From contig NZ_JAGGQL010000019.1 of NCBI RefSeq assembly GCF_018613315.1, positions 1 through 64,000 on the forward strand: a stretch of 64,000 nt of DNA, written 5' to 3'. How positions within the stretch are numbered: position 1 is the stretch's first letter; each line of letters begins with the position of its first letter. This stretch comes from Bacillus sp. ISL-37 (GTDB lineage: Bacteria; Bacillota; Bacilli; Bacillales; Cytobacillaceae). Position numbers and translations under genes: made by a program. Shown here one piece after another: positions 51,188 to 53,752 of this stretch. The notes below the pieces were generated by a model. It made no database searches. It worked only from the letters and a program-made list of their open reading frames with translations, and had not been told where the DNA came from.

Positions 51188-51217
51188 TTGACAATCAAAC
51201 GGTCATTTGAATAAGAT
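51188..51217 (+). promoter_or_regulatory. cadCA promoter
   Basis: TTGACA (51188-51193), 18 bp, TAAGAT (51212-51217). An alternative -10, TATAAT at 51217-51222, has no good -35. The first CadC operator dyad fills the spacer. Confidence 0.65.
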
Positions 51218-51237
51218 ATAATCAAAAGATCATTTGA
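51195..51237. promoter_or_regulatory. Paired CadC operator dyads
   Basis: TCAAA-N6-TTTGA occurs twice, at 51195-51210 and 51222-51237, with centres 27 bp apart. TCAAA.../TTTGA half-sites resemble the operator of staphylococcal cad and other ArsR/SmtB regulators. One lies between -35 and -10, the other over the start point. Confidence 0.65.
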
Positions 51238-51255
51238 ATGAATGGGGTGAGCAAA

Positions 51256-51624
51256 TTGAAGGAGCAGGATGTCTGCCAGGTCAATTGCGTCCATGACGAT
51301 AAAGTGGAGCGGGTGTCTGCAGAACTGAAAGAACAAAATACCTCTGCTGCAGCAAAAATCTTCAAGGCATTTTCAGATGAAACAAGAATTAAAATCGCAT
51401 ACTCACTATATGTAGGGAATGAGCTTTGTGTTTGTGATGTAGCTGCAGTCGTCAACTCGTCCACTGCAACTGCTTCACACCATTTGAGGCTGTTGAAAAA
51501 TCTTGGGCTCGCTAAATACCGCAAGGAAGGTAAGCTTGTTTATTATTCACTGGTCGATGACCATGTAAAGCAATTGATTCACCTGGCGTTTGAACACCAA
51601 AAGGAGATGGAGTTGAATGACTGA
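51256..51624 (+). CDS. cadC: Cadmium/lead/zinc-responsive ArsR-family repressor CadC
   Basis: CadC represses the cad operon until Cd, Pb, Zn or Bi binds. The 122-residue protein has all four cysteines of the metal site of staphylococcal CadC at the same numbers, Cys7 and Cys11 (DVCQVNC) and Cys58 and Cys60 (ELCVCD). The winged helix carries SSTATASHHLRLLKNLGLAKYRKEG. The TTG start at 51256 behind GGGGTGAG gives this exact numbering; an in-frame ATG at 51238 lies in the second operator. It overlaps cadA by 8 bp. Confidence 0.92.
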   Translation: MKEQDVCQVNCVHDDKVERVSAELKEQNTSAAAKIFKAFSDETRIKIAYSLYVGNELCVCDVAAVVNSSTATASHHLRLLKNLGLAKYRKEGKLVYYSLVDDHVKQLIHLAFEHQKEMELND

Positions 51625-53752
51625 GGCAGCGCAATCTGGCGAGAAAACAATATATCGGGTACAGGGTTTCACCTGAGCAAGCTGTGCCGGAAAGTTCGAA
51701 GAGAACGTAAAGCACCTGGATGGTGTTTTTGATGCAAAAGTTAATTTTGGCGCTTCCAAGCTGACTGTATTCGGTAAAGCCTCCATTGAAGAACTGGAGC
51801 AAGCTGGTGCATTTGAGAACCTGCGGCTTTACCCGGATAAAGCAGATATTATCCCTGAGAAAAAGAAACCGTTCTGGCAGGAAAACTTTTCGGTATTGAT
51901 CAGCCTTGTGATGATCATTGCCGCGTATTTTTTCCAGTTTAATTTTGGCGAAGAAAGTTTGCTTGCCATTCTATTATTTTTAGGAGCAATTATTGTAGGT
52001 GGCTTCTCCCTATTTAAAAGTGGGATAAAGAATCTTCTCAAGCTCGATTTTGACATGAGGGCACTGATGACTGTTGCCATCATCGGTGCTGCAATCATTG
52101 GCGAGTGGAGCGAAGGTGCCGTCGTTGTCATTTTGTTTGCGATTAGTGAAGTGCTTGAGAGATATTCAATGGATAAGGCAAGAGCGTCGATTCGTTCGTT
52201 AATGGATATTGCACCAAAAGAAGCGCTCGTCCGCCGTAAAGGCAGGGAATACAGCATAAATGTAAATGAAATAGAAGTCGGCGACATCATGATTGTAAAA
52301 CCAGGCGAGAAAATTGCCATGGATGGTGAAGTGATCTCTGGATTCTCGGCTGTCAACCAGGCGGCGATTACAGGCGAATCTGTCCCAGCAGATAAGAACG
52401 TGGGCGATGAGGTGTTTGCCGGTACTCTCAATGGAGAGGGTCTTATTGAGGTTAAAATCACTAAATTGGTCGATGATACCACAATCGCGAAAATCATTCA
52501 TCTTGTCGAAGAGGCACAGGCGGAAAAGGCTCCTTCGCAGGCATTCGTTGACCGCTTCGCCAAGTATTACACACCAATCATTATCCTTGTCGCAATCTTG
52601 GTCGCTATTGTACCTCCAATTTTCTTCGGTGCAGGTTGGAGTGAGTGGATTTATCAAGGCTTGGCCGTCCTCGTTGTCGGCTGTCCGTGTGCACTTGTCA
52701 TTTCAACGCCAGTTTCAATCGTGACAGCGATTGGCAATGCAGCTAAACATGGTGTGCTTGTAAAGGGTGGCATCCACCTTGAGGAAATGGGTGCACTGAA
52801 AGCAATCGCCTTTGATAAGACTGGGACGCTCACAAAAGGAGTGCCGGCTGTTACGGATTTCAAAATGGTATCTGGCGAAAATTCAAGCGTCCTTTTTGCA
52901 GTAATTGCCGCCCTTGAAAATAAATCACAGCATCCACTTGCTTCTGCGATTGTCCGTAAGGCAGAAGCAGACTCAGTGCCGTACAGAGATACTGTAATAG
53001 AAGATTTCACATCGGTAACCGGTAAAGGATTAAAAGGAACTGTCGACGGAATTGTTTATTATATCGGCAGTCCAAAATACATTGGGGAAATTGTTGAAGG
53101 CGGAATTCCAAATGCGGTAGCTGAAGAAATTTCACGCCTGCAGTCTGATGGCAAAACAGTGATGGTTGCAGGAGTTGATTCTAGAGTACTTGCATTGATC
53201 GCGGTTGCCGACGAAGTAAGAGAGTCGAGCAGGGAAGTCGTTTCCCGTCTGCATGAGCTTGGTATTGAAAAAACCATCATGCTGACAGGGGATAATAAAG
53301 GAACCGCAGAAGCAATTGGCAGCCAGGCTGGTGTGTCGGATATAGAATCCGATTTGCTTCCTGAAGATAAGCTTAATTTTATAAAAGACTTGCAGAAAAA
53401 CCATGGGAAAGTCGCGATGGTCGGAGATGGCATTAATGATGCACCTGCACTGGCCGCGGCGACAGTTGGAGTCGCGATGGGCGGAGCAGGTACCGATACG
53501 GCACTTGAAACGGCGGATATTGCCCTGATGGCAGATGACTTGAAAAAGCTGCCGTTCACGATTAAGTTGAGCCGAAAAACACTCGCAATCATCAAACAAA
53601 ACATCGCCTTCTCAATTGGCGTGAAATTACTGGCACTGCTATTGGTCATTCCGGGCTGGCTCACTCTGTGGATTGCGATTTTCGCCGACATGGGGGCAAC
53701 CCTGATTGTTACTCTGAACGGTTTGAGGCTTTTGAGAGTAAAGGATAAATAG
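51617..53752 (+). CDS. cadA: Cd/Zn/Pb-exporting P1B-type ATPase CadA with in-frame TGA (possible selenocysteine)
   Basis: CadA pumps divalent soft metals out of the cell. Read through one TGA (51674-51676) the product has 711 residues, the normal family length. It has an N-terminal HMA domain (about 13-80, GFT-TGA-ASC), eight membrane segments, the TGES actuator, the transport motif CPC (356-358), DKTGT with phosphorylated Asp 400, and [10 protein letters not shown]. The TGA replaces the first cysteine of GFTCxxC, and Cys 23 is kept. The ATG follows AAAGGAG at good spacing and overlaps cadC. Downstream of the TGA the HMA coding frame is intact, and the next usable start codons (TTG 51890, GTG 51893, ATG 51896) lie inside the first membrane helix. 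Selenocysteine decoding, nonsense mutation or sequencing error remain possible. Confidence 0.85.
51674..51676 (+). other. In-frame TGA codon at the first HMA cysteine of cadA
   Basis: ACC TGA GCA AGC TGT reads T-stop-A-S-C, where CadA proteins have T-C-A-N/S-C. A single base change from TGT or TGC would give TGA. It is codon 20 of cadA. Confidence 0.9.
51684..51715 (+). promoter_or_regulatory. SECIS-like hairpin after the cadA TGA
   Basis: GTTC (51694-51697) pairs with GAAC (51703-51706) around the five-base loop GAAGA. An outer helix GTGC (51684-51687) pairs with GCAC (51712-51715) across an internal loop. The loop begins 21 nt after the TGA and its first base is G. Known bacterial SECIS elements lie just downstream of UGA in the coding region and have a G early in the apical loop. 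The inner stem is only 4 bp, so chance is possible. Confidence 0.4.

Follow-up and report, generated by a model that had tools for sequence, protein, structure and literature searches.

Heavy-metal P-type ATPases with selenocysteine (Sec) have already been catalogued as predictions: Table 3 of PMC5029168 lists 32 such proteins from 25 organisms, and one GOS sequence is tabulated in PMC2398784. As presented in these tables, the catalogued proteins resemble the CadA treated here in being heavy-metal P-type ATPases with one Sec in a UxxC motif, and the 25 organisms may include Bacillales. Unlike in the tabulated set, the gene is here traced, together with its neighbour cadC, across a Bacillus-related family, and the RNA element after the codon is characterised. 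Among the matches listed in the open-access literature, none was a paper on a CadA selenoprotein from Bacillales. What is added here is the genus-wide and wide family presence of the Sec form, a two-hairpin recoding element, and natural flips between Sec and Cys. As to the hosts, a 2026 review states that aerobic bacteria rarely keep selenoproteins (PMC13188914), and figures given in PMC5029168 divide Sec users into 40.4% aerobic and 35.8% anaerobic.

The RefSeq protein WP_082919471.1, named "heavy metal translocating P-type ATPase" and encoded on plasmid pBO1 of Cytobacillus oceanisediminis, is 70.1% identical to the present CadA. Its CDS is annotated straight through the TGA and stands behind an ArsR/SmtB gene, like the locus in our window, i.e., the whole stretch of 64,000 nucleotides from Bacillus sp. 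ISL-37 that was analysed. It differs in lying on a 387-kb plasmid, and its table entry makes no mention of selenocysteine. Plasmid homologues from Cytobacillus are, in RefSeq, annotated across the TGA. Two Cytobacillus loci (L207, L208) have Sec-form cadC-cadA on large plasmids typed as non-mobilizable, an extrachromosomal selenoprotein gene. The Cys-form CadA of related Bacilli (Geobacillus, Anoxybacillus, Planococcus), most of which lack selB, is the same ATPase with the same site and mostly a CadC-like frame upstream (41/44), but it has TGT or TGC at the site, usually CxNC instead of UxGC or UxSC, and no synonymous constraint after it. The UxxU metal-binding (seleno)protein family NF041115 also has Sec in a metal-binding motif and is weakly similar to the HMA region (22.8 bits, below the cut-off of 95); unlike CadA, it is a family of 74 positions with two Sec and no ATPase.

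The cadC-cadA locus

The following features were assigned in the window:

51195..51210, no strand: inverted repeat TCAAA-N6-TTTGA, probable CadC operator 1 (sequence; repeats upstream in relatives)
51222..51237, no strand: inverted repeat TCAAA-N6-TTTGA, probable CadC operator 2 (sequence; repeats upstream in relatives)
51238..51624, plus strand: cadC, ArsR/SmtB-family metalloregulator, 128 aa (HTH_metalloreg over cut-off)
51617..53752, plus strand: cadA, heavy-metal P1B-type ATPase, read as a 711-aa selenoprotein (translation, NCBIfam, Pfam)
51674..51676, plus strand: in-frame TGA, codon 20, probable selenocysteine of the UxxC metal site GFTUASC (bases, translation, 127-locus comparison)

The original prediction had pointed to an in-frame TGA at the metal-binding cysteine of a cadA of otherwise normal length, with its ATPase motifs and the ligand cysteines of CadC intact, and this description held. 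With the TGA read through, the frame at 51617-53752 (plus strand) encodes 711 residues, is otherwise open and contains a single internal TGA. This codon takes the place of the first Cys in the HMA motif GFTCxxC, in the context GFT-U-ASC-AG, and the second Cys is present. Pfam domains HMA (residues 13-62), E1-E2_ATPase and HAD hydrolase were found in CadA, which scored 620.8 bits against NCBIfam TIGR01525 (cut-off 346.25) and 539.2 bits against TIGR01512, the Cd family (cut-off 313.5). The motifs CPC, DKTGT and GDGIND are all in the translation. By its Cd-family signature, these motifs and its CadC neighbour, the protein is assigned to the CadA-type (Cd/Zn/Pb) P1B ATPases, and metal export is predicted for it. 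CadC has two N-terminal cysteines and the ELCVC motif, and the end of its gene shares 8 bases with the beginning of cadA (ATG at 51617). A CadC-like frame precedes cadA in 77/83 Sec loci and 41/44 Cys loci. At least one TCAAA-N6-TTTGA inverted repeat, a probable cad operator, occurs upstream in 25/25 loci listed of the 83 Sec loci, the window's locus included.

Selenocysteine machinery of the genome

The search for Sec machinery that had been proposed as a check returned all four components: selA (479.2 bits), selB (357.7 bits, cut-off 242.25), the tRNA-Sec gene selC with anticodon TCA (67.1 bits, gathering 47), and selD, which scored over its cut-off and has an in-frame TGA of its own in KAGUGCK. 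The selD gene (L215/L219, G000:C61) is itself a selenoprotein gene and is separated by about 0.5 kb from selA, which is encoded on the other strand. A single in-frame TGA with a GGUCU-loop hairpin after it was found in each of two FdhA-type (formate-dehydrogenase-type) genes:

L169, G000:C5:15400-17421: FdhA-type gene, in-frame TGA and GGUCU-loop hairpin
L173, G000:C60:140735-141487: FdhA-type gene, in-frame TGA and GGUCU-loop hairpin

A third Fdh-alpha of the genome (C23) is without a stop.

Codons at the site in relatives

The Sec form of cadA was present in all 21 genus genomes searched and was widespread in the family. Exactly one TGA was found in 26 of the 29 CadA-like matches of the genus; of the three exceptions, the one in G017 was a Cys paralogue, the one in G012 a more distant ATPase with one TAA (44% identity), and the one in G001 began downstream. 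The G001 copy (L222, G001:C178), in a fragmented assembly, has the TGA and the element intact, and its frame changes further on. CadA-like matches were found in 182/193 family genomes, with both TGA and stop-free copies among the matches listed; four selB-containing genomes (G048, G054, G183, G190) had stop-free copies only, among the matches listed. By CadA identity, the best named relatives among the matches listed include Bacillus sp. ISL-55 (95%), Mesobacillus selenatarsenatis SF-1 (93%) and M. subterraneus DSM 13966 (83%), and the window therefore probably comes from a Mesobacillus.

For the alignment 152 loci were fetched (L017-L168), of which 149 aligned at the site and 127 were distinct; L037, L042 and L084 did not align. 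At exactly the codon in question the distinct loci had TGA (83), TGT (37) or TGC (7). In all 83 TGA alleles the open frame includes a start codon before the TGA and runs on for 672-693 codons beyond it. The argument that a chance nonsense mutation would seldom fall on this codon is thereby strengthened, as the same codon is TGA in 83 distinct loci, each of them open, and the conservation in dozens of genomes removes the worry of a sequencing error. In further loci at the phylum level (L179-L206, 51-65% identity) TGA stood at the site in 10/28, so the Sec form is either old or repeatedly gained.

Several side observations were made in these alignments. The second x of the CxxC motif is Gly or Ser in 79/83 Sec forms and Asn in 37/44 Cys forms. 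The GC bases of its GGC or AGC codon are nearly invariant, and the RNA element may therefore dictate the residue beside the metal site. One CadA homologue, L187 (G493:C1:276393-278492), has TGC at the site and, at residue 337 of the match, a TGA in frame. In two cadA copies (G041:C1:819617 and G124:C1:1798635), which are perhaps decaying, the match is interrupted by a second stop, either a TAA or another TGA.

Association of TGA with selB

SelB scored over the cut-off in 170/193 family genomes; of the 23 genomes without it, 20 were named in the output and three (G177, G189, G192) were deduced from the list. TGA occurred in 5 of the 35 CadA-like matches of these 23 genomes. A comparison of 37 genomes, those of 37/80 named loci, found selB in 17/17 genomes with TGA and in 3/20 with Cys. 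Counted by distinct loci, TGA was found 53 times with selB, 5 times without, and 25 times in genomes of unknown status, and the corresponding numbers for Cys were 4, 39 and 1. The association gave a Fisher p of 6.5e-18, a value that ignores relatedness and locus sampling, because the loci were chosen for their similarity to a Sec form and the search took in every family genome without selB. An independent-pairs test of Sec against selB that takes relatedness into account had few pairs (7, none contrary) and was not significant (median p 0.25).

Of the five contrary loci, TGA without detected selB, two are from assemblies that are almost complete (G169, G171). The assemblies of the other three are incomplete or fragmented: completeness is 66% for G010 and G189, and G145 is split into 720 contigs. 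The G169 copy differs from the copy in selB-containing G005 at 1 of 2,082 compared bases, and this near-identity suggests that it may have been transferred recently into a host unable to decode TGA. Both G169 and G171 also hold Cys-form copies, and their TGA-form genes (L079 and L085, respectively) were probably transferred into hosts that do not decode it. Among the 83 TGA alleles, L085 alone has T, not G, at loop column 55.

The probable recoding element

Three features were placed at and after the TGA:

51674..51736, plus strand: recoding region, codons +1 to +20, with strong synonymous constraint in TGA alleles only (codon conservation, shuffle folding)
51692..51708, plus strand: predicted SECIS hairpin 1, core GUUC-GAAnn-GAAC, loop from nt 22 after the TGA (two-sided changes at 3/6 pairs)
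51711..51727, plus strand: predicted SECIS hairpin 2, ARCACC-UGGAU-GGUGUU, loop from nt 41 after the TGA (99.3% of cells paired)

Synonymous constraint was analysed in 83 Sec and 40 Cys loci, with four Cys loci of less than 55% identity left out. Synonymous codons are unusually fixed from +1 to about +20 in the TGA alleles and not beyond, and no such block exists in the Cys alleles. At codons +13 to +16 the identical-codon fraction was 0.975 against 0.435 expected in Sec loci, and 0.415 against 0.398 expected in Cys loci. Compared with synonymous-codon shuffles, the mean folding z was -2.9 for the 83 Sec loci and -0.66 for the 40 Cys loci; for the window's own gene p was 0.075. Single-sequence folding of the window's downstream region against plain shuffles gave no support for a SECIS (z -0.08 to -0.88). 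The support for the element is comparative, coming from the synonymous-codon shuffles over the set and from the alignment.

In the alignment of 72 distinct sequences, 92.9% of cells at the twelve named pairs were paired. Two-sided changes were found at 4 pairs, as many as in none of 500 shuffles, and slid controls were far lower; on one of the five pairing measures, the number of further pair types, 8/500 shuffles reached the observed value. Hairpin 2 has an A-U to G-C change at one pair, and pair 29/43 of hairpin 1 is unpaired in 58/72 sequences. A candidate outer stem (columns 20-22 with 49-51) was rejected, having no two-sided change at all.

Limits of the bSECIS model as published in PMC13188914 were used for comparison. 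Hairpin 1 lies within those given for loop, stem, G and spacing (21 nt), and its energy taken by itself, a weak -3.5 kcal/mol, falls outside. Hairpin 2, with a UGGAU loop, 40 nt from UGA to loop and -6.7 kcal/mol, agrees with them in part. Among the 10 Sec homologues at the phylum level, eight fold so that a small upper hairpin tops a longer lower stem and another hairpin comes after it, L180 resembles the form in the window and L202 shows neither; in homologues from other classes the upper hairpin is similar to hairpin 1.

An RNA-model search of the 21 genus genomes found the recoding element at 92 bits or more in 21/21. Of its 30 matches, 27 were at TGA cadA copies, one at the G017 Cys paralogue (39.3 bits) and two were weak (27.4 bits; G006, G007), the one in G007 being an HMA CxxC stretch with no TGA at the site. 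No other gene of these 21 genomes carried a clear copy of the element in this search.

Evolution of the stretch after the TGA and natural Sec/Cys flips

The first possible in-frame restart lies 74 codons after the TGA in the window gene and from +11 to +126 codons across the 83 Sec genes. For Sec genes compared in 78 moderately distant pairs, dN/dS was 0.10 from the TGA to the first possible restart against 0.08 downstream. The stretch before the restart evolves as protein. Its synonymous divergence is lower than in the rest of the gene (0.22 against 0.35).

A FastTree tree of 155 rows, built with the region of the site left out, requires 13 Sec/Cys changes, 11 of which are forced by well-supported (starred) branches. 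The near-identical L154 (Evansella clarkii, TGA) and L136 (Halalkalibacter okhensis, TGC) are both from selB-containing genomes. They differ at 5/54 bases from the codon on and at 18/2,031 elsewhere, and for this reason the element seems to decay after a switch to a Cys codon. In L072 (G108, selB not found) the codon is TGC, the element is partly kept and an early TAA stands near the gene end.

Discussion

The selenocysteine reading of cadA, put forward as possible in the original prediction, can now be called very probable. From comparative sequence analysis, we are highly confident that Sec is inserted at codon 20, and cadA is very probably a selenoprotein gene, neither a pseudogene nor an error. 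By the sequence evidence the TGA has the marks of a Sec codon; the genome has SelA, SelB, SelC and SelD, and a conserved RNA element of two hairpins lies directly after the codon. Cd, Pb or Zn would release CadC from the tandem operators, the cadC-cadA message would be made, and SelB would deliver Sec-tRNA at the TGA. The full-length CadA would then bear a selenol/thiol pair, U20 and C23, in its N-terminal HMA domain. A selenol is softer and more acidic than a thiol, and most likely it would be a tighter or faster-exchanging ligand for Cd, Pb and Hg that loads or regulates the pump. On these chemical grounds we consider a role of the selenol as metal ligand rather likely. A second possible role is that of a selenenylsulfide redox switch with C23, by which metal loading would be disabled under oxidation.

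A TGA taken alone resembles a stop, and the downstream region of the window folds no better than chance, as would be the case if a nonsense mutation or sequencing error had made cadA a pseudogene or a misread gene. This is extremely improbable given the same codon in 83 distinct loci with at least 672 open codons after it in all, purifying selection on either side of the TGA, and the conserved element. Only a little less improbable is that the TGA closes a leader of 19 residues and CadA restarts downstream without the HMA domain, the hairpins serving regulation and not recoding. In-frame start codons do exist downstream and the ATPase core would be intact after a restart, but the stretch to be skipped encodes the HMA domain and is under protein-level purifying selection close to that of the core. 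Furthermore, the 83 Sec genes differ in where a restart could first occur, the 44 loci that lack the TGA all have a Cys codon in its place, and the TGA tracks selB.

More weight is due to the possibility that Sec is inserted and is a near-neutral substitute, drifting wherever selB works with no advantage to the pump. The 13 label changes required by the tree speak for it, as do the four distinct Cys loci in selB-containing genomes. Nevertheless we regard drift as unlikely, since TGA is found in 53/57 distinct loci of known status in selB-containing genomes (a sample chosen by similarity to the Sec form) and is kept although some 60 nt of RNA are tightly constrained.

With the TGA of cadA read as selenocysteine, a gene of this kind will be misread as broken wherever TGA is taken as a stop. 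The role of Sec is usually explained by redox catalysis, and a selenol at a soft-metal site opens the question of selenium in metal binding, for which L154 and L136 are available as matched natural Sec/Cys alleles. We tentatively suggest, as a possibility still in considerable doubt, that in a large group of Bacillus-related bacteria the Sec of a core metal-efflux pump binds metal or acts as a redox switch and has no catalytic part, and that it is decoded with a two-hairpin SECIS of a class that the published single-hairpin model does not cover. In such a SECIS a second conserved hairpin with a UGGAU loop would have taken the place of the long lower stem that homologues from other classes show.
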